Part shown: piece after piece, positions 2,095 to 18,875 of the stretch
How positions within the stretch are numbered: position 1 is the stretch's first letter
How the letters are laid out: each line of letters begins with the position of its first letter
NCBI GenBank assembly: GCA_900114805.1
Contig: FOZN01000003.1
Span: 248,001-312,000, forward strand
Origin: Agrococcus baldri
GTDB taxonomy: Bacteria > Actinomycetota > Actinomycetes > Actinomycetales > Microbacteriaceae
Length of the DNA: 64,000 nt
Direction: 5' to 3'
The notes under the pieces: model-generated
The model's input: the letters and a program-made list of their open reading frames with translations, nothing else
What the model was told of the DNA's origin: nothing
Databases searched by the model: none
Program-made: the position numbers and the translations under genes

Positions 2095-2122
2095 TTGACC
2101 GTCGTGCATGAAATCGTATATG
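2095..2122 (+). promoter_or_regulatory. Promoter of MHS transporter with ATCGTATA half-site
   Basis: TTGACC (2095-2100), a 16-nt spacer and TATATG (2117-2122) form a candidate promoter. The -10 overlaps ATCGTATA (2113-2120), which matches one arm and the centre of the palindrome in the divergent promoter, so both directions are probably controlled by the same GntR protein. Confidence 0.55.
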
Positions 2123-2173
2123 TTCCATCCAGTCCCGGGCCGACGCGGCCCTTCCCCTGACAAAGGAGTCAGC

Positions 2174-3586
2174 GTGTCCCACAGCACGACTCACCTCGCC
2201 ACCGGACGAGAGCGCAACAAGGTCCTCGCGGCGGTCGTCGTCGGCACCACCATCGAGTGGTACGACTTCTTCATCTACGCCTTCATGGCGAACCTGGTCT
2301 TCGCGCAGCTCTTCTTCGAGCCCGCCGGCCCGGGGCTCGGCCAGATCTTCTCGCTGCTCACGATCGGCATCTCGTTCCTGTTCCGACCGCTGGGAGCCTT
2401 CCTCGCCGGACACTTCGGCGACAAGCTCGGCCGTCGCCCGATGCTGGTCATCACGCTGCTGCTCATGGGTGGTGCCACCACGCTCGTCGGCGCGCTGCCC
2501 ACGTTCGACACCATCGGCGTCATGGCGCCGGTGCTGCTCATCCTGCTCCGCATCCTGCAGGGCCTCTCCGCCGGTGGCGAGTGGGGCGGCGCGGTGCTGA
2601 TGGCGATCGAGCACGCACCGGCCAACCGCCGCGGCCTCTACGGCTCGTTCGTGCAGGCCGGCGTGCCGATCGGCATGCTGCTCGCGACCGGCATCCTCGC
2701 CGCCATCCGGGCGATGTTCCCCGGAGACTCGTTCCTCGAGTTCGGCTGGCGCATCCCCTTCTTCATCTCGATCATCCTCGTGATCGTCGGCTTCGTCGTG
2801 CGCCGCTCGGTCGACGAGTCGCCGGTGTTCAAGGAGATCAAGGAGACGGCGCAGGAGTCGTCGGCACCGATCAAGATCGTCTTCAAGAAGTACGGCCACA
2901 TCGTGCTGTTCGCGGCGATGGTCTTCATGGCCAACAACGCCACGGGCTACATGACCACCGGCGGCTACGTGCAGGGCCTGGCATCGCGCCCGGTCGACGG
3001 CACCCCGCCCGGCCTCGGCTTCGACCCGGTCGGCGTGCAGCTCGCCGCCTTCGCAGGCTCGCTCTCGTGGCTGGTCTTCACGTTCGTGGCCGGCTGGCTC
3101 TCCGACCGCATCGGGCGCAAGCCGCTCTACTTCATCGGCTGGGCCACCCTCGCTGCCGGCATCCTGCCGCTGTTCGTGCTCGTGGAGCAGGGCGTCGCCG
3201 GCGTGGCCTGGGCCACCATCATCCTCGGCGCGGGCCTGGGCCTCACCTACGGCGCGCAGGCGGCGTTCTACGCGGAGTCGTTCCCGGCTTCGGTGCGCTA
3301 TTCAGGCGTCTCGATCGCCTACGCGATCGGCGCGGTGATCGGCGGTGCGTTCGCTCCCACGATCGCGCAGGCCCTCCTGAACGCCACCGGCACGACCTGG
3401 GTCATCGTCAGCTACCTGCTGACCACCGTCATCATCTCCGTGATCGGCACTGCGCTGATGCCCGATCGCACGGGCGTGCCGCTGTCGGTCGAGTACGAGC
3501 ACTCTGGGCACTGGGAGAAGTTCCGACGCGGCGACGAGTTCGAGGAGCTCTCGCCGGTCGACGCGCAGGCGCACCAGCAGCGCTAG
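2174..3586 (+). CDS. MFS transporter, metabolite:H+ symporter (MHS) family
   Basis: This is an inner-membrane proton-coupled uptake carrier of 470 residues with about 12 membrane segments. It has the MHS signature near the N terminus (GTTIEWYDFFIYA), the MFS loop motif GDKLGRRPML, the AGGEWGGAVLMAIEHAP motif of ShiA/ProP-like carriers, and a second GRKPLY motif in the second half. Start choice: GTG at 2174, 7 nt after AAAGGAG; the frame continues upstream to 2108 but would then begin inside the promoter. Divergent to the FAH/RraA fusion gene with a shared operator box, it probably imports the aromatic or organic acid whose breakdown that enzyme finishes. Confidence 0.88.
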   Translation: MSHSTTHLATGRERNKVLAAVVVGTTIEWYDFFIYAFMANLVFAQLFFEPAGPGLGQIFSLLTIGISFLFRPLGAFLAGHFGDKLGRRPMLVITLLLMGGATTLVGALPTFDTIGVMAPVLLILLRILQGLSAGGEWGGAVLMAIEHAPANRRGLYGSFVQAGVPIGMLLATGILAAIRAMFPGDSFLEFGWRIPFFISIILVIVGFVVRRSVDESPVFKEIKETAQESSAPIKIVFKKYGHIVLFAAMVFMANNATGYMTTGGYVQGLASRPVDGTPPGLGFDPVGVQLAAFAGSLSWLVFTFVAGWLSDRIGRKPLYFIGWATLAAGILPLFVLVEQGVAGVAWATIILGAGLGLTYGAQAAFYAESFPASVRYSGVSIAYAIGAVIGGAFAPTIAQALLNATGTTWVIVSYLLTTVIISVIGTALMPDRTGVPLSVEYEHSGHWEKFRRGDEFEELSPVDAQAHQQR

Positions 3587-3643: not shown

Positions 3644-4141
3644 CTACTGCACGACGACGATCGGATCGTCGAGGGGCGTGCCGGCGGTGTACGGCCCGAA
3701 GAAGAGATCGGCGCCGTCCTCGGTGAGAGCCGTGCCGCGAGCGCGCCGACCGTCGAACGCCTCGATGGTGGCGAAGCGGAGTCGGATGCTCGCGTCGTCC
3801 GGATCGGCGATCTCGAGCGCCCAGCTGCCGCCGCTCTCGACCAGCGCCGGGTCGGCGATGACGACGCGCATCATGCCGCTGTGGCCGGAGAGCACGACCG
3901 TGCCGCGGAACGCGTAGGGGGCGGATGCGTCGTCCCGGCGCCGGAAGCGGAACCCGCCCTCGGCGGCCGTGCCGTCGCCCGCCTCGGTGCCACCGGACGC
4001 ATCGGCACCGGCTGCATCGGCACCGGCTGCTGCCTCGGCGCCCGCCGATGCTTCGACGCTGCCGTCGGACATGCCGCGCACGTAGCTGAGCAGCGACGCC
4101 TTGATGCCCCAGACCAGGGCGCCAGTGCCGCTCGCCGTCAT
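3644..4141 (-). CDS. HtaA-domain (haem-binding) protein, cytosolic form
   Basis: The 165-residue protein consists of one HtaA-like domain. The opening LVWGIKASLLSYVRG matches the W-G-x-K-x-S-x-x-x-Y start of the family, with Y20 at the position of the haem-ligand tyrosine. FRGTVVLSGHSGMM carries the conserved G-H of the haem pocket (H87). An Ala/Asp/Gly-rich insertion covers residues about 33-62. I see no signal peptide, membrane anchor or sortase motif, whereas classical HtaA proteins are surface haem-uptake proteins. It overlaps the LysR gene by ATGA, and that operon diverges from a P450, itself a haem enzyme. Haem sensing or delivery is an attractive but untested role. Confidence 0.7.
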   Translation of the reverse strand: MTASGTGALVWGIKASLLSYVRGMSDGSVEASAGAEAAAGADAAGADASGGTEAGDGTAAEGGFRFRRRDDASAPYAFRGTVVLSGHSGMMRVVIADPALVESGGSWALEIADPDDASIRLRFATIEAFDGRRARGTALTEDGADLFFGPYTAGTPLDDPIVVVQ

Positions 4142-5061
4142 CGCGGCACCGACCAGGGCAGCGAGCGGGCGTAGTCGATGAGCGCTCGGGAGCGAGCGGT
4201 CGGGGCGGGAGTGCCGGGCCAGATGACGTCGACGCCGACCGGCGCGACCGGCGGCGCGATCTCCTTCATGGCCACAGGGTAGCCCTCGTAGCTCGCCGGG
4301 TTGGCGGGCCGCTGCACGAGGATGCCGTAGCCGAGCCCGCGCCCCACCAGTGCCCGCACGGCCTCGTAGCTCTGCACCCGGTGGCGCACCCGCGGGGCGA
4401 GTCCGCGGGCGGCGAACAGCGACATCGTGTGCTCGCTCGAGGGCGGCGCGTCGAGCAGGATCAGGTCGCGCTCGACGAGCTCCTCGAGCCGCACCGCGTC
4501 GGTGCTCGCGAGCGGATCGTCACCGGCGACCACCACGTGCGCGGGCAGCTCGAAGAGCTTCGCGCGCTGCGGCTCGCCGGGGATGAGCGTGTCGTAGACG
4601 AAGGCCACGTCGACCTGGCCCGCCTCGAGCCGGCCCTGCAGGCGGTCGTGGGTGGCCTCGACGATCGTGAGCTCTACGCGCGGGTGCGCCCGCCCGAAGC
4701 CCTGCAGCAGCGCGGGCAGGATCGTGGGCGCGAGCGTCGGGTAGCAGCCGACGGTGATGGGCCCGACCAGCTCGCCCGGAGCGCCGCGCAGCGATGCCTC
4801 GAGCTCGAGGGACGACGCGAGCAGCGCACGGGCGCGAGCGACCACATCCGCCCCCGTGCTCGTCAGCGTCAGGCCCCGGGCGCGACGCCGCACCGTCAGC
4901 TGCGTGCCGAGGCTGCGCTCGAGCTCGGTGATCGCCTCGGAGACCGCCGAAGGGGAGGCGTGCAGCCGCGCGGCGGCGGCGGCGATCGTCCCCTCGTCTG
5001 CGGCGCAGACCAGGAAGGAGAGCTGCCGGAGCGTGAAGGCGGGGGCTTCGAGCCGGTCCAT
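4138..5061 (-). CDS. LysR-family transcriptional regulator
   Basis: This 307-residue LysR protein has an N-terminal winged helix (residues about 8-68, AAAARLHASPSAVSEAITELE) and a periplasmic-binding-like effector domain from about residue 95. It starts at the ATG at 5061, preceded by GGAGG 7 nt upstream. It is transcribed away from the P450 fusion gene, the classical LysR arrangement, and shares the 117-bp spacer 5062-5178 with it. Its own operon continues into the HtaA-like gene. It most likely activates the P450 gene in response to its substrate. Confidence 0.9.
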   Translation of the reverse strand: MDRLEAPAFTLRQLSFLVCAADEGTIAAAAARLHASPSAVSEAITELERSLGTQLTVRRRARGLTLTSTGADVVARARALLASSLELEASLRGAPGELVGPITVGCYPTLAPTILPALLQGFGRAHPRVELTIVEATHDRLQGRLEAGQVDVAFVYDTLIPGEPQRAKLFELPAHVVVAGDDPLASTDAVRLEELVERDLILLDAPPSSEHTMSLFAARGLAPRVRHRVQSYEAVRALVGRGLGYGILVQRPANPASYEGYPVAMKEIAPPVAPVGVDVIWPGTPAPTARSRALIDYARSLPWSVPR

Positions 5062-5178
5062 CGTCGGTTCCTCCGATGTTAAAGTGTCGCAAAATCCGCT
5101 TTCCCAACGGTAGCCGACGCGGGCACACTGAGGACCGTGCGCGCGCTGATGCGCACCGACCACGAGGATGTGTGTGCC

Positions 5179-8100
5179 ATGTCGAGCAAGGAAGCTCCCG
5201 TCGCCGACTGGGTGACGATCCCGGATCTGTACCGCGACCCGTTCCCGATCTATGAGCGCCTGCGCGCCGAGGGCGGCGTGCACTGGGTGCCGGCAGTCGG
5301 GCGCTACCTGATCACCTCGTACCAGGCGGTGCACGAGACCGAGCTCGACCAGACGGTCTTCTCGGCCAACGAGCAGGGCTCGCTGCAGATCCGCGCGATG
5401 GGGCACTCGATGCTGCGCCGGGACGACCCCGAGCACTACCTCGAGCGCAGGGCCTGGCAGCCGACGCTGCGGCCGGGCGTCGTCAAGCGCCACTGGCGCG
5501 GCGTCTTCGAGCAGACCGCTGAGCGCTACCTCGACGAGCTGCTCGCGAAGGGCAGCGGCGCCGACCTGATCTGGGACTTCGCCGCCCCGTTCGCGGCCGA
5601 GAGCCTGCGGCAGATCATCGGCCTGCACAACGCCACGCAGCAGGATCTGCAGCGCTGGTCGCAGACCCTGATCGACGCCACCGGCAACTACGCCGACGAT
5701 CCCGAGGTGTGGGCGAAGGGCAGGCGCTCGTTCGACGAGGTCGACGCGGTGCTCGACGAGATGCTGCCGTGGCACGCGGCCAACCCGAACGAGTCGCTGC
5801 TGTCGCAGCTGCTGCGCATCCCCGGCTACGAGATGCCGATGGAGCGCATCCGCGCCAACGTCAAGATGACGATCGGCGGCGGGCTGAACGAGCCGCGCGA
5901 TGTGCTCGGCGTCGCCGCCTGGGGGCTGCTGTCGCACCCCGAGCAGCGCCGCGCCGTCGAGGCAGACCCGAGCCTGTGGCATGCGGCGTTCGACGAGACG
6001 CTCCGCTGGATCGCCCCGATCGGCCTCTACTCGCGTCAGACGACCCGCGAGGTCGAGCTCACCGGCGTGCGGCTGCCGGCCGGCGCGCGGCTGGGCATCT
6101 GCATCCTCTCGGCGAACCGCGACGAGCGCGTCTGGGATGACGCCTCCGCCTTCGACATCCGCCGCGAGGTCAAGCCGCACCTGGCCTTCAGCAAGGGCGT
6201 GCACGTGTGCCTCGGTGCCTGGGTCGCGCGCTCGGAGATCGCCGATGTGGCGCTGCCGATGCTGTTCGGGCGGCTGCAGGGGCTCGAGCTGGTGCCGGAG
6301 AACCCCGCAGAGATCGGCGGATGGGTCTTCCGCGGCATGCTGAAGATGCCCGTGCGCTGGTCGTCGGTGGTCTCGAGCACCGCCGCTGCGGCCACCGCGC
6401 CGGCTGCCGCGGCGCCGGCGGCCGGGCTCGCGCCGCGGATCGGCATCGTCGGCTCCGGTCCGGCCGGCTCGTTCACGGCGCAGGCGCTGCGCCGGCGGCT
6501 GCCGGCCGCCGAGATCGACGTGATCGACGCGCTGCCGGTGCCCTACGGGCTGATCCGCTCCGGTGTCGCCGCCGACCACGGCGGCACGAAGTCGGTCGCG
6601 CGCCAGTTCGACCGGCTGTTCCTGCACGAGGGCGTGCGCTTCCGTGGCAACCTGCGCGTCGACACGGGCTCTGTCGATGGCGCGGCCGACGGGGCCGTCT
6701 CGATCGACCGGCTGCGCTCGGCGTACGACGCGGTCGTGCTCGCCACCGGCCTGCGGCTCGACCGGCCGCTCGGCATCCCGGGCGATGCACTGGAGGGCGT
6801 GCACGGCGCCGGCCGCATCACCCGGCTGCTGAACGCGCACCCCGACGAGCCCGCCGCGCCGTCGCTGGGCACGACGACGCTCGTGGTCGGGCACGGCAAC
6901 GTCGCGATGGATGTCGTGCGACTGCTGGCCCGCGACGAGGAGGAGCTCGACGGCACCGACGTCGACGACGAGGCCCGGCGCGCGCTGGCCGCCGAGCTGC
7001 GCACCATCCACGTGGTCGGCCGCAGCGCGCCCACGGCCGCGAAGTTCGACCCTGTCATGGTGCGCGAGCTCGCCGGCCTCTCCGGGGTCGCGCACCACGT
7101 GCACGGCGCCGACCTGGGGCTCATCGCGGCTGGCAAGGACGCCCGGCTCGACGCGGTGCGGCTGCTCGACCAGAGGCGCCCGCGCCTGCCGCGCATCACG
7201 GTCCACTGGTGGTTCGGCCTCACGCCGGAGCGGCTGGAGGGCGACGGCTCGGTCGCGCGCATGGTGCTCCTGGGCGCCGACGCCGACGCCGAGGTCTCCA
7301 TCCCGACCGACTCGGTGGTGACGGCGGTCGGCTTCGCCGGCGACGTCGAGACGCTCGCGGAGCCCGGCGCCCATCAGGACGGCCGGGTGGAGGCGGGCCT
7401 CTACACCGCCGGCTGGCTGCGGCGCGGCCCGCGCGGCACCATCCCCGACCAGCGCACCGACGCGCGCGAGCTCGCCCGCACGATCGCCGAGGACCTCGAG
7501 ACCGGGGCGGTCGCGATCGGTGCGCCCGGCCTGCCGGCGGTCGCCGGCGAGACCGGCTTCGACGGCTGGCGCCGCATCGATGTGCGCGAGCAGCTGGGCG
7601 CCGCGCCCGGGCGCTCGCGAGCGAAGCTGCGCGGCCTGGCAGCGCTGCTCGAGGCCGCCGCCGACGCGACGATCCCGCTGCCCGAGATCGAGGCAGAGGC
7701 GGATGCGTCCGGTGGCGGCGGCGCGCCGGTCACGGTGGTGTTCGGCACCGAGTCCGGCGGCGCGGAGCTGGTCGCCGAGGAGCTGCGGCGCACGCTCGCG
7801 CACCGTGCGGACGTGGTGGTGCAAGATCTCGCCGATGTCGCACCCGACGACCTGGACGCATCCCGCCTGCACCTGGTGGTGTGCGCGACCTACGGCGACG
7901 GCGAGGTGCCGACCAGCGCCCGGCCCTTCCACCGGGCGCTCGCGGCGCTGCCCGAACTCGCCGGGCTGCGCTACGCAGTGTTCGGCATGGGCGATCGGAG
8001 CTACGCGAAGACCTATTCGCGCGGCTCGGAGCTGATCGACGAGGCGCTCACCGCGTGCGGCGCCACCCGGGTCGGCGAGTACGGCCGGCACGACGCCGGG

Positions 8101-8184
8101 GGGCCGGTGCCGGCGGCGGAGGCGGCCGCGGAGTGGGCCGATGCCGTGCTCACCGAGGCGCTCGCGCCGGTCGTGACGGTGTAG
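5179..8184 (+). CDS. Self-sufficient cytochrome P450: P450 - adrenodoxin-reductase-like FNR - flavodoxin fusion
   Basis: The product is a 1001-residue chain. Residues 1 to about 400 are a P450: E273-T-L-R276 (ExxR) and FSKGVHVCLG with haem-thiolate C344. An Ala-rich linker (about 397-418) leads to an FprA/adrenodoxin-reductase-like domain (about 419-840) with FAD motif GSGPAG (425-430), LPVPYGLIRSGVA and NADPH motif GHGNVAMD (571-578). Residues about 850-1001 are a flavodoxin with FGTESGGAE (from F855) and ATYGDGEVP. Electrons would flow NADPH to FAD to FMN to haem in one polypeptide. The I-helix reads GGLNEP (N237, E238) where A-G-x-D-T-T is usual. I choose the ATG at 5179; in-frame GTG 5137 and ATG 5149 have poorly placed ribosome sites. 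The substrate is unknown. Confidence 0.88.
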   Translation: MSSKEAPVADWVTIPDLYRDPFPIYERLRAEGGVHWVPAVGRYLITSYQAVHETELDQTVFSANEQGSLQIRAMGHSMLRRDDPEHYLERRAWQPTLRPGVVKRHWRGVFEQTAERYLDELLAKGSGADLIWDFAAPFAAESLRQIIGLHNATQQDLQRWSQTLIDATGNYADDPEVWAKGRRSFDEVDAVLDEMLPWHAANPNESLLSQLLRIPGYEMPMERIRANVKMTIGGGLNEPRDVLGVAAWGLLSHPEQRRAVEADPSLWHAAFDETLRWIAPIGLYSRQTTREVELTGVRLPAGARLGICILSANRDERVWDDASAFDIRREVKPHLAFSKGVHVCLGAWVARSEIADVALPMLFGRLQGLELVPENPAEIGGWVFRGMLKMPVRWSSVVSSTAAAATAPAAAAPAAGLAPRIGIVGSGPAGSFTAQALRRRLPAAEIDVIDALPVPYGLIRSGVAADHGGTKSVARQFDRLFLHEGVRFRGNLRVDTGSVDGAADGAVSIDRLRSAYDAVVLATGLRLDRPLGIPGDALEGVHGAGRITRLLNAHPDEPAAPSLGTTTLVVGHGNVAMDVVRLLARDEEELDGTDVDDEARRALAAELRTIHVVGRSAPTAAKFDPVMVRELAGLSGVAHHVHGADLGLIAAGKDARLDAVRLLDQRRPRLPRITVHWWFGLTPERLEGDGSVARMVLLGADADAEVSIPTDSVVTAVGFAGDVETLAEPGAHQDGRVEAGLYTAGWLRRGPRGTIPDQRTDARELARTIAEDLETGAVAIGAPGLPAVAGETGFDGWRRIDVREQLGAAPGRSRAKLRGLAALLEAAADATIPLPEIEAEADASGGGGAPVTVVFGTESGGAELVAEELRRTLAHRADVVVQDLADVAPDDLDASRLHLVVCATYGDGEVPTSARPFHRALAALPELAGLRYAVFGMGDRSYAKTYSRGSELIDEALTACGATRVGEYGRHDAGGPVPAAEAAAEWADAVLTEALAPVVTV

Positions 8185-8196
8185 CGGCGCGGCCGC

Positions 8197-9387
8197 TCAG
8201 CCCTCGGCCATCGGCTGCTTCGGCAGCCGCTTCACCCGCGCCCGGCGCTTCGGGCGGGCGGGGATCATCGAGCGCATCTCCTCCAGCCGGCCGAAGCACA
8301 GCAGTCGGTCCTCGGCCTGCAGCACCTTGCGACCCTTCGGGTTCGGGATCACCGCGGTGCCGCGGTGCAGCGTCAGCACTGTGATGTCGCGATCCCAGAG
8401 GCCTGACTCCTTGACGGTCTTGCCGACCAGGTCGGCGTCGCCGTGCACCTCGAGCTCGGCGACGCCGTAGCCGGTCGAGACGCTCAGCCGCTCGCGCACG
8501 TCGATCTCGGGGAAGGCCACCTGGTTGGCGATGTGGTCGATGATCGCGCCCGCCACGTCGAGCCGGGTCGCCGTCTCGATGCCCTCGAGCCCGGGCGAGG
8601 AGTTGACCTCCATCACCAGCGGCCCGTCGTCGCCCTCGAGCATGTCGACGCCCGCGACCTTGAGGCCCATGATCTGGGCAGAGCGCACGGCGACCCGCTC
8701 GTACTCGGGCTCGAGGGTGACCGCTTCGACGGTGCCGCCGCGGTGCACGTTCGAGCGGAACTCGTCGCCCTGCGCCGTGCGCCGCATCGCCGCGACGACG
8801 CGGTCGCCGACCACCAGCGCCCGGATGTCGCGCCCCTTGCTCTCGGCGACGAAGCGCTGGATCAGCACCTGCTGCCGCGTGCTCTGGAGCGTCTCGATGA
8901 TCGCCTCGGCCACCTTGATCGTCGGCGCGAGGATGACGCCGATGCCCTGCGTGCCCTCCAGCAGCTTCAGCACCACGGGCGCGCCGCCCACCCGCTCGAT
9001 CGCGGGGATCACGTCGGCGCGGTCGCGCACGAACGCCGTCGCCGGCATGCCGATGTCGTGCCGCGCGAGGATCTGCGTCGCGCGCAGCTTGTCGCGCGAG
9101 TTCGCGATGCCGTTCGCGGTGTTGGGCGTATAGACGTCCATCTGCTCGAACTGCCGCACGACGGCGGTGCCGAAGTAGGTGATGGAGTTGCCGATGCGCG
9201 GCAGGACCGCGTCGTAGTCGGTCAGCTGCCGGCCGCGGAACTGCAGGTCGGGCGCCTCGCCCGAGAGGTCGATCGCGAAGCGCAGCGTGTTCAGCACCTT
9301 CACGTCGTGGCCGCGCTCGACCGCCGCCGCGCGCAGGCGGCGCGTGCTGTAGGCGTGCGGCGCACGCGAGAGGATGGCGAGCCTCAT
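8197..9387 (-). CDS. rimK: RimK-family ATP-grasp ligase with C-terminal TrkA-C (RCK_C) domain
   Basis: This is a 396-residue ATP-grasp enzyme. Residues 1 to about 300 match RimK, the ligase that adds glutamate to the C terminus of ribosomal protein S6: N-terminal MRLAILSRAPHAYSTRRL, the ATP-grasp lysine motif VVLKLLEGTQGIGV, and the metal-binding EVNSSPGLEGIE. Residues about 310-380 form an RCK_C/TrkA-C fold (GVAELEVHGDADLVGKTV), which is not in E. coli RimK and suggests ligand control. It starts at the ATG at 9387 after AGGAACG. It is head-to-head with the protease and deacylase genes that accompany RimK in other bacteria. Confidence 0.88.
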   Translation of the reverse strand: MRLAILSRAPHAYSTRRLRAAAVERGHDVKVLNTLRFAIDLSGEAPDLQFRGRQLTDYDAVLPRIGNSITYFGTAVVRQFEQMDVYTPNTANGIANSRDKLRATQILARHDIGMPATAFVRDRADVIPAIERVGGAPVVLKLLEGTQGIGVILAPTIKVAEAIIETLQSTRQQVLIQRFVAESKGRDIRALVVGDRVVAAMRRTAQGDEFRSNVHRGGTVEAVTLEPEYERVAVRSAQIMGLKVAGVDMLEGDDGPLVMEVNSSPGLEGIETATRLDVAGAIIDHIANQVAFPEIDVRERLSVSTGYGVAELEVHGDADLVGKTVKESGLWDRDITVLTLHRGTAVIPNPKGRKVLQAEDRLLCFGRLEEMRSMIPARPKRRARVKRLPKQPMAEG

Positions 9388-9438: not shown

Positions 9439-9927
9439 ATGGGCCGACACCATCCAAGCACCCCCGCGACCGCCGGCTGGCGCGAGTGGGTCGGGCTGCC
9501 CGAGCTCGGGGTCGCGCACATGAAGGCCAAGCTCGACACCGGCGCCCGCACGAGCGCGATGCACGCCTTCGACCTCGCGGAGTTCACGCGCGACGGCGCC
9601 GACTGGGTGCGCTTCGAGGTGCACCCGTGGCAGCGCTCCAAGGCGGATGCGGTGGTCGCCGAGCACGCCGTGCACGACCGCCGACGCGTCCGTTCATCGA
9701 CCGGGCACGAGCAGGAGCGCATCGTCATCCGCACCGCGATCACACTGCTGGGGCGCGACGTCACGACCGAGGTGACGCTCGCGAGCCGCGACGAGATGGG
9801 GTTCCGGATGCTCGTGGGGCGTGAGGCGCTCCGCCAGGGCTTCGCGGTCGACAGCGCGCACTCCTACCTGGGCGGCCGGCCGCCCCGCGAGGTGCGGCTG
9901 CGGAATCGGGGGCGCAGTGGCGCGTGA
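9439..9927 (+). CDS. RimK-associated retropepsin-like zinc protease (RimB / DUF785 type)
   Basis: The 162-residue protein has the DUF785 hallmarks: WVGLPELG, the aspartic-protease-like KLDTGARTSAMHA, and RMLVGREAL. Proteins of this family act with RimK; in Pseudomonas the equivalent RimB is reported as a protease that acts on modified S6. It begins at the ATG at 9439, 51 bp from the divergent rimK start. No strong ribosome site is visible, consistent with a short-leader mRNA. It overlaps the following deacylase gene by 11 bp, so the two are likely cotranslated. Confidence 0.85.
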   Translation: MGRHHPSTPATAGWREWVGLPELGVAHMKAKLDTGARTSAMHAFDLAEFTRDGADWVRFEVHPWQRSKADAVVAEHAVHDRRRVRSSTGHEQERIVIRTAITLLGRDVTTEVTLASRDEMGFRMLVGREALRQGFAVDSAHSYLGGRPPREVRLRNRGRSGA

Positions 9928-10879
9928 GTCGTTCGCGATCGGCGCGGTGCGGGTGCGTGCCGGTCAGGCGAAGAGCGTGGAGCTGCCGATCACCAAGCTC
10001 GTCACCGGCGGCGACGTCTCGCTGCCGGTGCGGGTGGTGCACGGCCGCGAGCCCGGGCCGACGGTCTGGCTCGACGCCGCGATCCACGGCGACGAGGTGC
10101 TCGGCGTCGAGGTCGTGCGGCAGGTGCTCGCCCTGGTCACGCCGCGCACGCTGCGCGGCACGCTGCTCGCGGTGCCGGTCGTCAATGTGCTCGGCTTCAT
10201 GACCGGCGATCGCACCCTGCCCGATCGGCGCGACCTCAACCGCTCGTTCCCGGGTGCGGCGCGCGGCTCGCTCGCGAGTCGCATCGCGCACCTGCTGATG
10301 ACCGAGGTGGTCGCCAAGTGCGACGTCGGCATCGACCTGCACACCGGCACCGACCACCGCGACAACCTGCCGCAGATCCGCGCCGACCTCGACCACTCGG
10401 AGACGCGCAGGCTCGCTGAGGCGTTCGCCGCACCCGTGATGCTGCACGCGAGGCTGCGCGACGGCTCGCTGCGGCAGGCGGCGCGCGAGGCGGGCGCCAT
10501 CGCCCTGCTCTACGAGGCCGGCGAGGCGCTGCGCTTCGGCGCCGAGCCGATCGCCGCCGGGGTCGACGGTGTGCTGCGCGTGCTCGCAGCGCTCGACATG
10601 ATCGACGACGCGCCCGAGCCCGCGGTCGCGCCCGAGGAGAGCCGCGCGAGCGGCTGGGTGCGGGCGCGCGGCACGGGCATCCTGCACCTCGACGTCGAGC
10701 TCGGCGACCGGGTGGAGGCGGGCGCCAGGCTCGGCAGGGTGGCGGATGCGTTCGGCACGTCCGGCCGCATCGTGCGTGCCGACCGCGCCGGCATCGTCAT
10801 CGGCCTCACCCGTGCCCCGATCGTGCACGCCGGCGACGCCGTCGCCCACATCGCGGTGCCGGTGGCGCTCGAGGCCTGA
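9917..10879 (+). CDS. Succinylglutamate desuccinylase/aspartoacylase-family deacylase
   Basis: This is a 320-residue zinc amidohydrolase of the M14-like AstE/AspA family. Zinc ligands are visible in AAIHGDEVLG (H, E) and IDLHTGTDHR (H), with NLNRSFPG-type DLNRSFPG in between. The C-terminal 80 residues are the beta-rich tail usual for the subfamily (LHLDVELGDRVEAG). The start is the GTG at 9917, which overlaps the 3' end of the protease gene by 11 bp. Its association with rimK and the DUF785 protease is a recurring genomic triad, and hydrolysis of a RimK-made amide bond is a reasonable inference. Confidence 0.85.
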   Translation: MARESFAIGAVRVRAGQAKSVELPITKLVTGGDVSLPVRVVHGREPGPTVWLDAAIHGDEVLGVEVVRQVLALVTPRTLRGTLLAVPVVNVLGFMTGDRTLPDRRDLNRSFPGAARGSLASRIAHLLMTEVVAKCDVGIDLHTGTDHRDNLPQIRADLDHSETRRLAEAFAAPVMLHARLRDGSLRQAAREAGAIALLYEAGEALRFGAEPIAAGVDGVLRVLAALDMIDDAPEPAVAPEESRASGWVRARGTGILHLDVELGDRVEAGARLGRVADAFGTSGRIVRADRAGIVIGLTRAPIVHAGDAVAHIAVPVALEA

Positions 10880-10994: not shown

Positions 10995-12398
10995 ATGGAG
11001 ACCTACGAGTCCCTGCTGGCAGCGGTCAGCGTCCCTGAAGGCCAGCCGGTCATCGACCCGGCCACGGGCGAGGCGTTCGCACACGCGCCGGTCTCGACCA
11101 CGGCAGACCTGGAGCGGGCGATCGCGGCGGCGCAGGCCGCCCAGCCCGCATGGGCGGCGCTGAGCGACGACGAGCGCCGCGCCGCGCTCACCGCGGCGGC
11201 CGACGAGATCGAGGCGAACGCCGAGGCGCTCGCGCTCATCATCGCGCGCGAGCAGGGCAAGCCGCTCAGCGGACCCGGCGCACGATTCGAGGTCGGCGCT
11301 GTCGTCGGGTGGCTGCGGGCGACCGTCGCGACGCAACTCGAGCCCGAGGTCGTCGTCGACGACGAGCAGGCGAAGGCGACGATCTACTATCGCCCCATCG
11401 GGCTGGTCGGCGCGATCGGGCCGTGGAACTGGCCCGCGATGATCGCCACCTGGCAGTTCGCACCCGCCCTGCGGATGGGCAACGCCGTGGTGATGAAGCC
11501 CAGCGAGTTCACGCCGCTGAGCGTGCTGGCCACGGCGCTGCTGGTGAACCGGCACCTTCCCGAGGGCCTGTTCACCGTGCTCGCCGGCGACCGCGAGCTC
11601 GGCGAAGCCATCTCCTCCAACCCCGCCTTCGGCAAGGTCACGTTCACGGGCTCCGCCCGCACCGGCGCGGCGATCATGCGCGCCTCCGCCGACAACCTCA
11701 CGCGGCTCACGCTCGAGCTGGGCGGCAACGACCCCGGCATCGTGCTGCCGGATGTCGACCCCAAGGCGATCGCCGAGGGCCTCTTCTGGGGTGCGTTCAT
11801 CAACACCGGCCAGACCTGCGCGGCGCTCAAGCGCCTGTACGTGCACGAGGACGTCTATGACGACGTCGTGCGCGAGCTGGCGGCCGTGGCGGGCGCCATG
11901 CCGATGGGACCTGGCAGCGACGAGCAGAACGTGCTCGGGCCGCTCACCACTGAGCAGCAGTTCGGCATCGTCGACCGCCTCGTCGAGGACGCCAAGGCTC
12001 GCGGCGGCCGCGTGCTGGTCGGCGGCGAGCCCGATCGCGACGCGCCGGGCTGGTTCTACCCGGCGACGCTCGTCGATGGTCTCGACGACGACGCCGATCT
12101 CGTGAAGGAGGAGCAGTTCGGCCCCGCGCTGCCGATCCTGAAGTACTCCGACGTCGACGACGCCATCGAGCGCGCCAACCGCGGCGAGGCAGGCCTCGGC
12201 GCCAGCGTCTGGTCGGCGGACCCGGCACGTGCCCGCGAGGTCGCCTCGCGCATCCAGTCCGGCTCCGTGTGGATCAACTCGCACGGCACGATCCACCCGA
12301 TGGCGCCCTTCGGTGGCGTGAAGGGCTCCGGCTACGGCCTGGAGTTCGGCGTCGAGGGCCTCAAGGCGATGGGTGTGCCGCAGGTCATCCACGGCTGA
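10995..12398 (+). CDS. NAD(P)-dependent aldehyde dehydrogenase
   Basis: This 467-residue ALDH has the N-anchor GPWNWPAMI, the cofactor loop FTGSARTGAAIM, the general base in LELGGNDP, and the catalytic cysteine in NTGQTCAALKRLYV. It probably oxidises the aldehyde released by the copper amine oxidase encoded 2 kb downstream, as PadA/FeaB does for phenylacetaldehyde in enterobacteria; the aldehyde itself cannot be named. The start at 10995 has GAAGGAGAG upstream. A strong hairpin follows the stop. Confidence 0.9.
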   Translation: METYESLLAAVSVPEGQPVIDPATGEAFAHAPVSTTADLERAIAAAQAAQPAWAALSDDERRAALTAAADEIEANAEALALIIAREQGKPLSGPGARFEVGAVVGWLRATVATQLEPEVVVDDEQAKATIYYRPIGLVGAIGPWNWPAMIATWQFAPALRMGNAVVMKPSEFTPLSVLATALLVNRHLPEGLFTVLAGDRELGEAISSNPAFGKVTFTGSARTGAAIMRASADNLTRLTLELGGNDPGIVLPDVDPKAIAEGLFWGAFINTGQTCAALKRLYVHEDVYDDVVRELAAVAGAMPMGPGSDEQNVLGPLTTEQQFGIVDRLVEDAKARGGRVLVGGEPDRDAPGWFYPATLVDGLDDDADLVKEEQFGPALPILKYSDVDDAIERANRGEAGLGASVWSADPARAREVASRIQSGSVWINSHGTIHPMAPFGGVKGSGYGLEFGVEGLKAMGVPQVIHG

Positions 12399-13281: not shown

Positions 13282-14045
13282 CTCTGGGGCTCCTCCACGA
13301 GGTAGGGAGTGGCGTTCACGACCTCGAAGCGGCTGCCGACCGGGAAGACGGTCGGGCTGCCGGGCTCGAACGCGTCGTCGCCGAACAGCGCCCCGTCGGA
13401 GCGCAACTGCTGCAGGTCGATGAGCACGGCCCCGAGCGTGGGCACGATCTTCTCCCGCCAGACGAACAGCACGAGGCCCTCGGCGACGCGGATGGCGTCG
13501 CACGCGTCCGTGTCGGCCAGGCCCGCCTCCACGCCCGAGAGGCAGTGCCAGGTGTACCGGTGCTCGGAGAGGTAGATGTGCTCGTACGACTCGGTGGGGG
13601 AGTAGGTGTAGCGGTTGCGCAGCCCGACCAGCTCGCGGGTGGGCGCGTGTCGGCTGCCGCCCGCGTCGACCAGGCCGTGCCGGAAGGCGGCCGTCACGCC
13701 GGTCGGATCGTCGCCGCGCTGCACGCGCGTCCAGGCGCTCTCGCGCGCGGTCGGGGCATCCGGCAGCCGTGCGGAGACGCGCGTGAACCCGCCGTCGGCG
13801 AGCACCAGCAGCTCCAGGCCCCGGTCGCCCGAGAGCTGCCTGGCCATCAAGACGCCCGGCCGGATCGCCGTGACGTGCGCGTCGCCCCGCTCGCCGCCGA
13901 GGTCGGCCGTGCCGTCCTCGCCGAACGCGATGCGCTCGCCCTCGAGGTCGAGCTCGCGGCCCGCGAGGGCATCCACGGCCGGCAGCACGTCGCCGTGCGC
14001 CTCCATGCCGCGCCCGAGATCGCCGACCGAGATGAACTCGCTCAT
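13278..14045 (-). CDS. moaF: MoaF-family protein (monoamine regulon)
   Basis: The 255-residue protein looks like MoaF, with a beta-barrel N half and a C half containing YTYSPTESYEHIYLSEHRYTW and EGLVLFVWREKIVPT. MoaF was named from the monoamine oxidase regulon of Klebsiella; the label molybdenum cofactor protein sometimes attached to it is misleading here. It is cotranslated between the amine oxidase (ATGA overlap at 14042-14045) and the SDR (ATGA overlap at 13278-13281). The family fold suggests small-ligand binding. Its biochemical role is not established. Confidence 0.8.
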   Translation of the reverse strand: MSEFISVGDLGRGMEAHGDVLPAVDALAGRELDLEGERIAFGEDGTADLGGERGDAHVTAIRPGVLMARQLSGDRGLELLVLADGGFTRVSARLPDAPTARESAWTRVQRGDDPTGVTAAFRHGLVDAGGSRHAPTRELVGLRNRYTYSPTESYEHIYLSEHRYTWHCLSGVEAGLADTDACDAIRVAEGLVLFVWREKIVPTLGAVLIDLQQLRSDGALFGDDAFEPGSPTVFPVGSRFEVVNATPYLVEEPQR

Positions 14046-16126
14046 CGGATCGCCACGTGGTCGTCGCCGTCGTCGCCGTGATGGCCGTGGTGGCCGTCGT
14101 GGTCCTCTCCGCGCTGGTGGCCGCCGTGGCCGTGCTCGTGACCGCCGTCGGGGCCGCACGTGCACGCGCCGCCGGCGCAGCCGCATCCGCCCCCTGCCTC
14201 CGGCACGTCGAGCGCCGGATTGCGGTCGAGGAAGCCGTAGGGCTTCACCCAGAAGCCCGAGTAGTCGACCGGCATGATGGGCCAGTCCTCGGGGCGCGGG
14301 ATGTGCGTGAGGCCGAACGAGTGCCACACCACGAGATCGCCGCCGTCGACTTCGCCGCCCGCCTCCACCGACGCGGGCAGGCCGGCGCCCCCGGAGTGCT
14401 GGTTGGGGTAGCGGCCGGCGGGATAGAGGTCGTCATCGCGGTGCGCCGTCACCCAGAGGTGCTCGGTGGCGAAGGTGGCGCGCGCGTGCACCGTCGAGGC
14501 CGGATCTGCCATGAGCGTCGCCCTGGCCTCGGGGATGAGCTGGAACTCCGTCGGCCTGCCGACCGCGTTGGTGCGGCTCGACGAACCGATGTGCCAGGTG
14601 CGGCCGAAGGCCCCGTCGCCCTGCATGCCGGATGCGGCCGTGATGCGATCGCGCCGGTAGCTGAAGGCGTTGCCCCACGGGTTCTCCTCGCCCATCGGCA
14701 CGCGCACCAGGTCGACCTGGTCGACGTAGTTGTCGGTGCCGTCGACGTCGAAGTCGAGCCGCGCGCAGAAGATGTGCTGGTGGATGGGCGCGAACAGGCC
14801 CGGTGCCATCTCGGTCGCGCTCGGCAGGATGCTGCCGGGAGCGTCGGCGCCCGCGAAGACGATGCCGGTCGCCTTCGCCTCGAACTGGATCGAGCCGTCG
14901 AGGTAGAGGTACCAGAAGAACCCGTAGTCGTAGTTGCCGACCGTCGCCCAGTAGGAGACGACGAGCCGGCGCGAGCGGCGGCCGTGGGTCGTCTCGCCGT
15001 CGAGCTCGCGGTGCTTCCAGAGCACCCCGTAGTCCTCCTCGTGCATGCAGATCGCGCGCGGGATGGTGATCGACTCGCCGGTGTCTGCAGCGACGTGCGC
15101 GTCGAAGTAGTGGATCGCGCCGACGCAGTCGCAGCCGAGCTGCAGCGAGTTGGCGTTCTTGCCCAGGTTGTACTCTCCGGCGTCGAAGTAGCTGATCCAG
15201 CGGCGGGTCTCGCTCGTGTCGCCGTAGGGCACCACCATCTCGGGCACGCTCGCCCGGTGCAGCACCGGCCGCAGCTCGTCGCCGTCCTGCCAGCCGAGCT
15301 GATGCAGCACGAGCCCCTCGCGCATCGAGAAGCCGACGCGGAACCGCCACTGCTCCCAGGTCACCTCGCTGCCGTCGACCGAGAAGCTCGGTCCCTCCGG
15401 CTGGGTGATCGAGAGCGGCTTGAGCGAGGTGCGGCGCTCGCCGACGGCCTCGTCGTCGTAGTTGAAGCCCTCGAGCACGGGCACCGGCACCTGCCGCTCG
15501 TCGACGAGCTTCACGACGCGCTGCTCGGTGACGTCCACCATCAGCACCAGCCCCTCGACGGGGAACGACCAGGGGTTGTCGTGCTCGCCGGGCGGCATGA
15601 ACGTCAGCGAGCGCATCATGCGCTTGCCGACTTCGTCGGTCTCGCCGAACTGCCCGGGTGCGAGCGGCACCACGAGCGCGTGCTCCCACTCGGTGAGTCC
15701 GCGCGCCTCCATGGCCCTGCGCCAGCCGGCATCCGCCTTCACCACGCGGTCGACCAGCTCGTACTCCTCGAACAGGTACGGCGGCTGCCCGTAGGGAGCC
15801 TCGGCGGTGGGCAGCGTCTGGATCGATTCGACCCTGTCGTCGTCGAGCGAGACGACCGCTTCGCGCACCCGGCCCGAGCCGGTGTCGAGCAGGGTCGTCA
15901 GCACGCGGCGGCCGAGCGGCTGGCCGGGTCGCCATGCCGCGAGCTGCGCCTTGGGCGCCTCGAGCAGCAGCTGCAACGGGAACCGGGTGTCGTCGAGCAG
16001 CTCGCCGGCGGCGTCGAGCGCTCGGCGCACCCTGTCGATCTCGGCAGGCGCGAGTGCGTCGAGCGGATGCGTCGCCTCGGCCAGGTGGGAGTCGCGCGCG
16101 CCATGGGTGTGCGTCGTGTCGGGCAT
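14042..16126 (-). CDS. Primary-amine oxidase (copper / topaquinone)
   Basis: This 694-residue copper amine oxidase deaminates primary amines to aldehydes with release of NH3 and H2O2. The TPQ precursor is Y399 in GNYDYG, the catalytic base is D315 in SYFDAGEYN, and the copper ligands are H449-x-H451 and H608 (THIPRPEDWP). The D315-Y399 spacing of 84 agrees with the Arthrobacter enzyme. No signal peptide is seen, so it is cytosolic. The last 50 residues are an unusual Cys/His/Asp-rich tail (GGGCGCAGGACTCG, then HEHGHGGH, GHHGHHG) that looks metal-binding. AGGAGG precedes the ATG at 16126. It is followed by moaF and the SDR gene. Confidence 0.93.
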   Translation of the reverse strand: MPDTTHTHGARDSHLAEATHPLDALAPAEIDRVRRALDAAGELLDDTRFPLQLLLEAPKAQLAAWRPGQPLGRRVLTTLLDTGSGRVREAVVSLDDDRVESIQTLPTAEAPYGQPPYLFEEYELVDRVVKADAGWRRAMEARGLTEWEHALVVPLAPGQFGETDEVGKRMMRSLTFMPPGEHDNPWSFPVEGLVLMVDVTEQRVVKLVDERQVPVPVLEGFNYDDEAVGERRTSLKPLSITQPEGPSFSVDGSEVTWEQWRFRVGFSMREGLVLHQLGWQDGDELRPVLHRASVPEMVVPYGDTSETRRWISYFDAGEYNLGKNANSLQLGCDCVGAIHYFDAHVAADTGESITIPRAICMHEEDYGVLWKHRELDGETTHGRRSRRLVVSYWATVGNYDYGFFWYLYLDGSIQFEAKATGIVFAGADAPGSILPSATEMAPGLFAPIHQHIFCARLDFDVDGTDNYVDQVDLVRVPMGEENPWGNAFSYRRDRITAASGMQGDGAFGRTWHIGSSSRTNAVGRPTEFQLIPEARATLMADPASTVHARATFATEHLWVTAHRDDDLYPAGRYPNQHSGGAGLPASVEAGGEVDGGDLVVWHSFGLTHIPRPEDWPIMPVDYSGFWVKPYGFLDRNPALDVPEAGGGCGCAGGACTCGPDGGHEHGHGGHQRGEDHDGHHGHHGDDGDDHVAIR

Positions 16127-16186: not shown

Positions 16187-17209
16187 CTAGTGCAGGGCGC
16201 TTGCCGTCGCCTGCTCGTGCACGCCTGTCGCCTGCTCGTACACGCTCGTCGCCTGCTCGTGCACGCTGGCCGCGACCCGGTACTCGGTCGGGCTGTGACC
16301 GAACGTGGCGCGGAACAGGCGCGAGAAGTGCGCCGGGTTGACGAGCCCCCAGCGCGACGCGATGCGCGCGATCGGCAGATCCGCCAGCTGCGCATCGGTG
16401 AGGTCGCGGCGGATGCGCTCGAGGCGGCGCTCGCGGATCCATCCGGCGACCGTGATGCCGCGCTCGGCGAAGACCGCGTGGAGGTGGCGGGTGGAGATGA
16501 AGTGCGCGTCGGCGACCTGCGCCGGGGAGAGTTCCGGGTCACCGAGCAGCTCGTCGATGGTGCCGAGCAGCTCGTGCAGCAGCTGCCGTCGCGGGTCGCG
16601 CCGCACGCCCTCCTTGAGCTGGGTGTGGATGAGCGTCATCAGCAGGTCGAGCCCCGAGCGGGCGAGGCGCTGCCCGTGCTCGGCCGGCAGCTGAGCGAGG
16701 CTCTGGGCGAGACCGACGAGGAACGGGTTGACGACCCTGCCCAGCGGCGACTCGAGCGGGAAGGCCGTCGCCGTGACCGAGGCGAGCTCCTCGCGGGGGA
16801 TGTCGAGGTAGCCGTGGGGGAAGGTGATGACGACAAGGCTCGTCGTGCCGTCGAAGCGCAGGGTGTACGGGCGGGAGGTGTCGTAGATCGCGAGATCGCC
16901 CGGGTGCAGCAGGGCCACGCGGCCGTCCTGCTCGATCAGCTCCTCGCCCGAGAGCTGCAGGCTGACCTTGATGAGATCGGTGGCGCCGCGGCTGACGAGC
17001 GCCGGTGTGCGCGCCACGATGCTCGCGGTGTGCTCGATGCGGAAGACGGAGACCTCGCCGACGTCGACGCGGCTCGCGCGTGCCCGGAACGGGCTCTCGC
17101 CCAGCGGGTGCACGTCGAGCGGCACGAAGTTCTCGGTGGTGTCGCGCCGCCACTGCGCGAGGTCGACGAACGGCGCCTCCAGCGGCGGGAAGTCGAAGAT
17201 GTCGGTCAC
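16187..17209 (-). CDS. AraC-family regulator, FeaR-like, with C-terminal heptad repeat
   Basis: The 340-residue protein has an AraC-binding-like N domain (HPGDLAIYDTSRPYTLRF is typical of FeaR/TynR regulators) and two C-terminal helix-turn-helices (residues about 215-312, ending NPAHFSRLFRATFGHSPTEYR). In E. coli FeaR activates tynA and feaB; here it precedes the amine oxidase and opposes an APC permease, fitting the same job. The C terminus carries three 7-residue repeats (VHEQATS, VYEQATG, VHEQATA) after the DNA-binding domain, which the family does not need. The start at 17209 has GGAGGG close upstream. Confidence 0.88.
   Translation of the reverse strand: MTDIFDFPPLEAPFVDLAQWRRDTTENFVPLDVHPLGESPFRARASRVDVGEVSVFRIEHTASIVARTPALVSRGATDLIKVSLQLSGEELIEQDGRVALLHPGDLAIYDTSRPYTLRFDGTTSLVVITFPHGYLDIPREELASVTATAFPLESPLGRVVNPFLVGLAQSLAQLPAEHGQRLARSGLDLLMTLIHTQLKEGVRRDPRRQLLHELLGTIDELLGDPELSPAQVADAHFISTRHLHAVFAERGITVAGWIRERRLERIRRDLTDAQLADLPIARIASRWGLVNPAHFSRLFRATFGHSPTEYRVAASVHEQATSVYEQATGVHEQATASALH
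16206..16268 (-). repeat. Three tandem 21-bp repeats inside the 3' end of the AraC gene
   Basis: Units at 16206-16226, 16227-16247 and 16248-16268 differ at only a few positions; each begins GTCGCCTGCTCGT and contains CGTGCACG (CGTACACG in the middle one). They encode the C-terminal heptads of the regulator. They also lie 80-142 bp upstream of the amine oxidase start, and share the CGTGCAC core and 21-bp period with the direct repeats before the aldehyde dehydrogenase gene, so they may double as activator sites. Confidence 0.75.
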
Positions 17210-17378
17210 TGGGCCCTCCTGCGGCCGCCCCGTCGCGGCCGTGCTCCCAGGGTAGCTGTGCTATCGGGTGCCGGTGTCTGCGCGCCGACAGTCAATGCTT
17301 CAGCGCTCGCAGGCAATCGTCTGCGGACCCTATGGGGGCACCATGAGTGCAAATCGGTCCATCGAACGAAGGAGTCCC

Positions 17379-18875
17379 ATGGACACCGAAGTACAGCATG
17401 GTGCTCTCAAGGCGAACCAGCTCGGCGTCCCAGCCGTCGTGTTCCTCGTCCTCGCCGCGGTCGCGCCGCTGACCGTCGCGATCGTGGTCCTGCCGCTCGC
17501 GATCGGATTCGGCAACGGCGGCGGCATCCCGGTCGCGGTGATCGTCGTCGCGCTGGCGCTGCTGCTGTTCGCCATCGGCTACGCGCAGATGTCGAAGGAG
17601 CTGGTCAACGCCGGAGGCTTCTACGCCATCGCGGTGCGAGGGCTCGGCCGCACGGCGGGGCTGATCACCGGCCTGATCGCGACGTTGGGCTACAACTTCT
17701 TCGTCGCGGGTGCGCTCGGCACCATCGGCTTCTTCACCGGAGCGGTGGTGCTGCCCGCGCTGTTCGGCTTCGAGGTGCACTGGTTCATCGCCGGTCTCGT
17801 GCTGTTCGTGATCGTCTTCCTGCTGGCCCGCTCGGGCATCCACATGAGCGCCGTGGTGCTGGGCGTGGCCCTGGTGCTCGAGACGCTCATCCTGGTGGCG
17901 TTCGCGATCTCCGTCCTGGTGCAGACCGGGTTCAGCCTCGAGGCCTTCACGCTGGCGCTCAGCCCCGAGATCCTCATCGGCGGCTCGATCTGGATCGCGT
18001 TCCTCATGGTCGCGACGGCGTTCATCGGCTTCGAGGCGACGGCACTGTTCAGCGAGGAGGCCCGCGAGCCGCGCAAGACGATCCCGCGCGCCACCTACAC
18101 GGCGATCATCGCGATCGGCGTCATCCACGCGATCGTCGGCTGGGCGATCGTCAGCGCCGTGGGCGTGCAGGATGCGCAGGAGTCGGCGCTCGACCACCTG
18201 GCCGCTGGCGACATGACGCTCGTGCTGATCGACACCTACCTGGGGCCGGTCGTCGGCATGGTGGCGCTCGTGCTGCTCGTCGTAAGCCTGTTCGCGGCGC
18301 AGCTCGCCTTCCACAACTCGGCCGCACGCTACCTCTACGCGCTCGGACGGGCGCGCGTGCTGCCGCGCTGGCTCTCGAAGACGAACCGCAACGGCGCGCC
18401 CGAGCGCGCGCAGCTGGTGAACCTGGTCTTCGCGGTCGCCGTGGCCGGCATCTTCGCCATCTTCGTCGAGACCGACCCCGACGGCGCCCCGCTGCCTCCC
18501 GTGCTCACGCTCGTGCCGGTGGGGCTCGGCTTCGCCACGCTCGCGATCATGATCGTGCAGACGATCGCGGCGCTGGCGGTCGTCGTGTACTTCCGCAAGC
18601 GCTCCGACCCGCGGCTGTGGAGCACGCTGATCGCGCCCGGACTCGGCTTCCTCGCCCTGCTCGGGTTCAGCATCGGCGCGCTGTTCAACTTCACCCTGGT
18701 CGCCGGCTCCGAAGCGCTGTACGTGCGGCTGATGCCGTGGCTGCTGCTGCTGGCCGTGATCGGCGGCGTCGGCTACGCGGCGTACCTGCGCTCGCGGAAG
18801 CCCGAGGTGTACCGCGGGCTCGATGCGGACATCGAGCGGCTGGACGAGTTGGACGAGGAGCCCGTACGGGCCTGA
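17379..18875 (+). CDS. APC-family amino acid/amine permease
   Basis: This 498-residue membrane carrier has about 12 hydrophobic segments and family features: APLTVAIVVLPLAIGFGNGGG in segment 1, a Gly-rich NAGGFYAIAVRGLGR in segments 2-3, and FEATALFSEEAREPRKTIPRA after segment 6. It starts at the ATG at 17379, 5 nt after AAGGAG. Divergent from the FeaR-like regulator and beside the amine oxidase operon, it likely imports the amine oxidised by that enzyme. No GTGCAC direct repeats are seen in its 169-bp upstream spacer. Confidence 0.88.
   Translation: MDTEVQHGALKANQLGVPAVVFLVLAAVAPLTVAIVVLPLAIGFGNGGGIPVAVIVVALALLLFAIGYAQMSKELVNAGGFYAIAVRGLGRTAGLITGLIATLGYNFFVAGALGTIGFFTGAVVLPALFGFEVHWFIAGLVLFVIVFLLARSGIHMSAVVLGVALVLETLILVAFAISVLVQTGFSLEAFTLALSPEILIGGSIWIAFLMVATAFIGFEATALFSEEAREPRKTIPRATYTAIIAIGVIHAIVGWAIVSAVGVQDAQESALDHLAAGDMTLVLIDTYLGPVVGMVALVLLVVSLFAAQLAFHNSAARYLYALGRARVLPRWLSKTNRNGAPERAQLVNLVFAVAVAGIFAIFVETDPDGAPLPPVLTLVPVGLGFATLAIMIVQTIAALAVVVYFRKRSDPRLWSTLIAPGLGFLALLGFSIGALFNFTLVAGSEALYVRLMPWLLLLAVIGGVGYAAYLRSRKPEVYRGLDADIERLDELDEEPVRA

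Follow-up and report, generated by a model that had tools for sequence, protein, structure and literature searches.

Does a single open reading frame of Agrococcus baldri encode a cytochrome P450 together with its entire electron supply, in a domain order that sets it apart from other self-sufficient P450s, and which reaction would such an enzyme catalyze? In the 64,000-nt stretch of DNA analyzed here (the window), the open reading frame at 5179–8184 on the forward strand encodes 1001 aa and its translation contains zero internal stops; a GTG at position 5137, 42 bases upstream, represents a possible other start. Pfam matches along the protein were ordered p450, Pyr_redox_2/NAD_binding_8, and Flavodoxin_1 (aa 853–976), and phmmer matched aa 5–401 to the P450 6g71, aa 421–824 to M. 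tuberculosis FprA, and aa 418–663 to adrenodoxin reductase, in agreement with the original prediction, which had placed three domains in this order on one chain. Judged from its sequence, the protein would be self-sufficient, with a P450 and a complete electron chain on one polypeptide.

Domain organization and occurrence of the fusion

The following features were assigned to the fusion:

5179–8184, forward: three-domain fusion P450–FprA/adrenodoxin-reductase-like–flavodoxin, 1001 aa (translation, Pfam, phmmer, Foldseek)
5179–6380, forward: P450 domain, about aa 1–400; nearest solved relative 6g71 (CYP1232A24) (sequence and Foldseek)
5872–5901, forward: I-helix motif IGGGLNEPRD, aa 232–241, with N237-E238-P239 (translation, tree rows, alignment)
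6187–6216, forward: heme-binding loop FSKGVHVCLG with C344 (translation, alignment)
6376–6423, forward: Ala/Pro-rich linker from P450 to reductase, variable in length and sequence (alignment; low pLDDT at 400–415)
6424–7668, forward: FprA/adrenodoxin-reductase-like domain, about aa 416–830, with GSGPAG, GHGNVAMD, and GRS at 614–616 (Pfam, phmmer, Foldseek, alignment)
7720–8181, forward: flavodoxin domain, about aa 848–1001, related to MioC and CysJ flavodoxins (Pfam, NCBIfam, alignment)

An AlphaFold2 model built from a 26-row alignment was of moderate quality over the whole chain (pLDDT 76.6, pTM 0.57), and its domain packing is unreadable because of low-confidence P450 stretches and the low pTM. 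The Foldseek list for this model was topped by P450 and FprA folds: as with phmmer, the first part matched CYP1232A24 and the second part matched FprA/adrenodoxin reductase; a flavodoxin fold was absent from the best 50 rows. An NCBIfam scan of the flavodoxin part placed MioC and CysJ among its relatives, all under curated cut-offs.

A scan of one genome per species (84,980 species) with six exact query peptides, which yields counts that are lower bounds, returned at least 33 loci; 28 of these match all three domains, 25 of them in a single open frame. The loci belong to Agrococcus, Leucobacter, Gulosibacter, [Zimmermannella], Microbacterium, Labedella, Serinicoccus, one Arthrobacter, and "Micrococcales bacterium 31B". 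The interrupted copies (L022, L027, and L029, with L027 coming from a metagenome bin) may reflect either sequencing error or decay. In whole-genome samples, where calls were based on match range and open frame, the fusion was found in 11 of 299 genomes of the window's family and in 10 of 396 genomes of its order (two already in the family count). It was also found in at least 15 of 245 genomes of a second family (f6), which we infer from its Arthrobacter-like genes to be Micrococcaceae; this number is a lower bound because, among the 78 matches listed, 30 were inspected as loci along with G1092 and G1036, while the other 46 were judged by open-frame length alone. Every one of the 15 f6 fusions reads through from the P450 to the FprA part without leaving the frame, and in 14/15 the same frame also includes the flavodoxin. 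The total for the window's order is 34 sampled genomes, of which 33 show the complete three-domain fusion, while in the remaining one (G1148) the contig stops ahead of the flavodoxin. A class sample of 394 genomes searched at E 1e-60 presented the fusion solely in the window's genome and one congener.

The original prediction had allowed that an assembly join might have linked domains that close relatives encode separately, and had proposed a full-length search for the same three-domain order. This order was recovered in one frame in 25/28 loci and in 34 genomes, which leaves the doubt about a join unsupported; an assembly or annotation artefact joining three genes was thus rejected, its probability being negligible. 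Rhodococcus pyridinivorans L041, which carries a P450, an FAD oxidoreductase, and a flavodoxin as three separate genes in the same order, would speak for such a join, but its P450 is only 24% identical to that of the fusion.

Catalytic residues and relation to known P450 systems

The P450 domain is about 60% identical over 395 aa (E 3.2e-168) to CYP1232A24 (PDB 6g71, "Structure of CYP1232A24 from Arthrobacter sp."), with 61% identity in the Foldseek alignment, and carries the identical I-helix motif IGGGLNEPRD; by convention, a P450 belongs to the subfamily of a named P450 with which it shares more than 55% identity, here CYP1232A. The chain in 6g71 comprises only the P450 (405 residues), in contrast to the three-domain fusion. 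Among the 245 f6 genomes, the closest P450 to 6g71 was 63% identical, the genome of CYP1232A24 itself not being among them. The next P450 matches after 6g71 were SyoA and GcoA, about 29–30% identical to the fusion P450 (Foldseek). GcoA/GcoB and SyoA (CYP255A) resemble the fusion in an I helix where an amide precedes E-P (QEP, as LQEP in SyoA and MQEP in GcoA) and in aromatic O-demethylation, the reaction proposed here. The respective papers describe GcoA as an NADH-driven O2 enzyme served by a separate ferredoxin-FAD reductase, GcoB (PMC6021390), and syringol as the preferred substrate of SyoA (PMC13101465).

When the window protein was aligned with 25 intact relatives (26 rows), N237, E238, P239, E273, R276, and C344 were each present in 26/26, and all can be seen in the translation; the residues named in the original prediction therefore stand where it had placed them, and both P450 hallmarks, ExxR (E273–R276) and the heme cysteine (C344), are conserved. 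The heme, FAD, NAD(P), and FMN-loop positions checked were present in 26/26, save T857 (24/26) and T904 (25/26), which are otherwise S. At aa 614–616 (window 7018–7026), the FprA-like domain reads G-R-S, with R615 and S616 each in 26/26, while G-R-R serves the NADPH 2′-phosphate in canonical FprA and adrenodoxin reductase; this replacement may have changed the preference for NADPH versus NADH.

The Asn-Glu of NEP departs from the acid-alcohol pair common in P450s; in P450cin (CYP176A1), Asn replaces the I-helix Thr. IGGG[LVI]NEPRD was found in 49/49 rows of a P450 tree built from a selection of loci rather than from all relatives (32 fused, 16 stand-alone, and 6g71). Because CYP1232A24 and all 49 rows have NEP, we read NEP as a family trait, and GcoA, with QEP, is NADH-driven; the original prediction, which had treated it as peculiar to the fusion protein, does not hold on this point.

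Regarding the order of domains, the original prediction was borne out: it differs from those of CYP102 and CYP116B as well as from that of XplA/XplB. CYP102A1 (P450 BM3) is likewise a single chain with the P450 first and with FAD and FMN carriers, but its reductase is a CPR-type diflavin reductase with the FMN domain beside the heme domain and FAD last, whereas here the reductase is of the FprA/adrenodoxin reductase type, with the FAD domain central and the flavodoxin at the C-terminus. CYP116B (P450 RhF type), also a single chain with the P450 first, has an FMN reductase with a C-terminal [2Fe-2S] domain; Pfam (E 0.001) found no [2Fe-2S] ferredoxin domain in the fusion, and CYP116B, an FMN/[2Fe-2S] type, is not taken as the same architecture. 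XplA/XplB is similar in that a flavodoxin and an FAD reductase serve a P450 that has lost the Asp/Glu-Thr motif; it differs in its flavodoxin N-terminal to the P450, its separate reductase, and its reductive denitration (PMC8081977), while Pfam places the P450 first and the flavodoxin last in the fusion. PMC9405906 describes flavodoxin and flavodoxin reductase partners for P450cin, unlike the fusion encoded by separate genes of one operon, and presents CYP116B3 as fused to P450 and flavodoxin reductase; the latter description shows that the general idea of a P450–reductase–carrier fusion is already known. Artificial flavodoxin–reductase fusions exist as well (PMC4503991 and PMC5575160). Among the open-licence PMC papers searched, none was recognized as describing a natural P450–FprA-like–flavodoxin architecture. 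Of the two characters in which the original prediction saw novelty, the motif thus turned out to be that of a named CYP with a structure (CYP1232A24), whereas the architecture had no such match among the types compared. The protein is a real, conserved three-domain fusion, apparently of single origin, and is unmatched in architecture by the self-sufficient P450 types compared.

Gene neighborhood and proposed reaction

The genes surrounding the fusion in the window include the following:

468–2078, reverse: HpaG-like domain of the FAH family fused in frame to an RraA-like domain (NCBIfam NF009399 over cut-off)
2108–3586, forward: MFS metabolite/H+ symporter-like (match under curated cut-off)
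4138–5061, reverse: LysR-type regulator, divergent, start codon picked by eye (profile match)
10995–12398, forward: aldehyde dehydrogenase, proposed for an aryl-acetaldehyde step (no curated cut-off reached)
14042–16126, reverse: primary-amine (copper) oxidase (798.8 bits, cut-off 651)
16187–17209, reverse: FeaR-like regulator (below curated cut-off)
17268–18875, forward: APC-type permease (below curated cut-off)

A RimK-family glutamate ligase gene (8197–9384, reverse) is convergent with the fusion and is followed by a deacylase-related gene (9860–10879). Just upstream of the window, on the same contig (L038), are genes for HpaE (654 bits, cut-off 638.35), HpaD (440.2 bits, cut-off 321.4), and an HpaH-like protein (below cut-off). 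As predicted from these profile matches, the Hpa genes beside the fusion are homoprotocatechuate meta-cleavage genes. Among the 28 loci, a LysR match is found upstream of the fusion in 24 and a symporter relative nearby in 19. At least one Hpa gene lies in the available flank of 13 loci (HpaD in 11, another Hpa gene in L011 and L023), and none in 15, including all those of Leucobacter and Gulosibacter, several flanks being short; none was found in the 16-kb f7 locus L064 either.

In the window's family, HpaD exceeded the cut-off in 11/11 fusion genomes and in 99/288 others (Fisher p 1.2e-5, genomes taken as independent), although two genomes of the window's genus (G119 and G174) have HpaD and no fusion. 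HpaD is present in 32 of the 34 fusion genomes, the two without it being draft assemblies that are 91 and 88% complete. In f6, HpaD was found in 13/15 fusion genomes and 15/16 stand-alone genomes; as it is near-universal there (223/245), co-occurrence is informative in the window's family only.

We consider it probable that the protein is a self-sufficient CYP1232A-type O-demethylase that would use O2 and electrons passed from NAD(P)H through FAD and FMN to heme, with homovanillate-type arylacetates as substrates. NAD(P)H would reduce the FAD predicted in the FprA-like domain, electrons would move on to the predicted FMN of the C-terminal flavodoxin and then to the P450 heme, and heme and O2 would hydroxylate an aryl O-methyl group, which would be lost as formaldehyde; the N237-E238 amide-acid pair, located at the usual acid-alcohol site, would have to take over proton delivery, here and in the other family members alike. 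The likeliest substrates would be methoxylated phenylacetates, e.g., homovanillate and perhaps 3,4-dimethoxyphenylacetate; these could arise from methoxy-phenethylamines through the amine oxidase and the aldehyde dehydrogenase encoded nearby. The neighboring HpaD would then cleave the product, homoprotocatechuate, and HpaE and the HpaG-like and HpaH-like proteins would degrade it further. O-demethylation is proposed because the nearest solved relatives are CYP1232A24, SyoA, and GcoA; CYP1232A24 reportedly demethylates homovanillate-type acids (Dubiel et al. 2019) and is reported to be a 3,4-dimethoxyphenylacetate/homovanillate O-demethylase from papaverine degradation.

The same self-sufficient monooxygenase might instead perform another reaction, either ring hydroxylation (for example, forming homoprotocatechuate from 4- or 3-hydroxyphenylacetate) or the demethylation of a different methoxy-aromatic, with HpaD being just one neighbor. 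This is a possible but rather unlikely reading: another hydroxylase would be useful because 21/34 fusion genomes presented no HpaB-family match at E 0.001, and the 15 loci with no Hpa gene nearby also suit it, while the O-demethylases GcoA, SyoA, and (reportedly) CYP1232A24 being the nearest solved relatives argues the other way. A single HpaB-family match (122.5 bits) was recorded for the window's genome, and the P450 is therefore not necessarily the sole route to homoprotocatechuate.

Two further readings concern the heme chemistry itself. Peroxygenase-type or substrate-assisted catalysis, in which the N-E pair would let the heme use H2O2 and the flavin domains would be auxiliary, draws on the missing acid-alcohol pair and on SyoA, reportedly a peroxygenase, with QEP; we judge it very unlikely, as the flavin-site residues are nearly invariant in the 26 fusions, a pattern that would be anticipated if NAD(P)H-driven reduction were under selection, and as GcoA, also with QEP, forms aldehyde about 1:1 with NADH on five substrates (PMC6021390). 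The original prediction had named reductive chemistry as in XplA among the possibilities suggested by the missing acid-alcohol pair, and XplA is indeed a P450 that lacks the Asp/Glu-Thr motif, carries a flavodoxin, and depends on XplB as its reductase (PMC8081977). Because NEP is family-wide, stand-alone P450s included, this function was rejected as the leading reading and is hardly credible here, given also that the P450 of an XplB/XplA-like pair (L039) is just 25% identical and that the surroundings point to aerobic aromatic catabolism. Conventional O2-dependent O-demethylation, in homovanillate/homoprotocatechuate catabolism, is thus the most likely chemistry suggested by these comparisons.

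Redox partners and origin of the fusion

The 30 f6 loci divide evenly between 15 P450s that continue in frame into the FprA-like domain and 15 that stop 0–3 codons past the P450. Genes for a [2Fe-2S] ferredoxin and a ferredoxin reductase adjoin the stand-alone Micrococcaceae-type P450s in 17/17 cases examined (15 plus two); in the fused clade, FprA and flavodoxin take their place. Stand-alone loci elsewhere have incomplete partners, with neither match in L063, the ferredoxin only in L057, and the reductase only in L074. A first P450 tree placed the fused P450s on one side of a single branch (99/94), and in the 49-row tree one branch (100/99) likewise splits fused from stand-alone rows; the fused branch with 6g71 outside received 98/93, 6g71 being a sister row whose long branch is flagged as uncertain. 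In a reductase–flavodoxin tree, the 16 fused parts share one branch against nine two-gene pairs (100/99). The simplest history thus looks like a single fusion event in the window's order together with an exchange of partners, presumably from the iron-sulfur to the flavin form.

On balance, we lean slightly toward an undescribed natural class of self-sufficient P450s (P450–adrenodoxin-reductase-like–flavodoxin) that would have a single origin within the window's order, in an O-demethylase of the CYP1232A type that swapped its iron-sulfur partners for a covalent two-flavin chain free of iron-sulfur centers. One P450 family would then occur naturally both as a stand-alone enzyme served by a [2Fe-2S] ferredoxin and its reductase and as a fusion with an FAD reductase and flavodoxin, which offers a ready comparison of redox-partner exchange and fusion on a near-constant catalytic domain. 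If the proposed substrate is correct, methoxy-arylacetates derived from lignin and catecholamines could be O-demethylated with a compact biocatalyst of this kind, and the fusion would provide another system for testing how O2 is activated when an Asn-Glu pair stands in for the acid-alcohol pair.

Separate genes for an FprA-like protein and a flavodoxin were also observed in L061 (4468–7808) and L065 (6029–9367), divergent from a different P450 (26% identical), which this pair may serve; a glutamine-synthetase-like gene and a permease gene are close by in L061. L039, on plasmid pLRE138 of Rhodococcus erythropolis R138, encodes the XplB/XplA-like FAD oxidoreductase followed by a flavodoxin–P450 fusion (5926–8919), with genes for an aldehyde dehydrogenase and an APC permease as neighbors.
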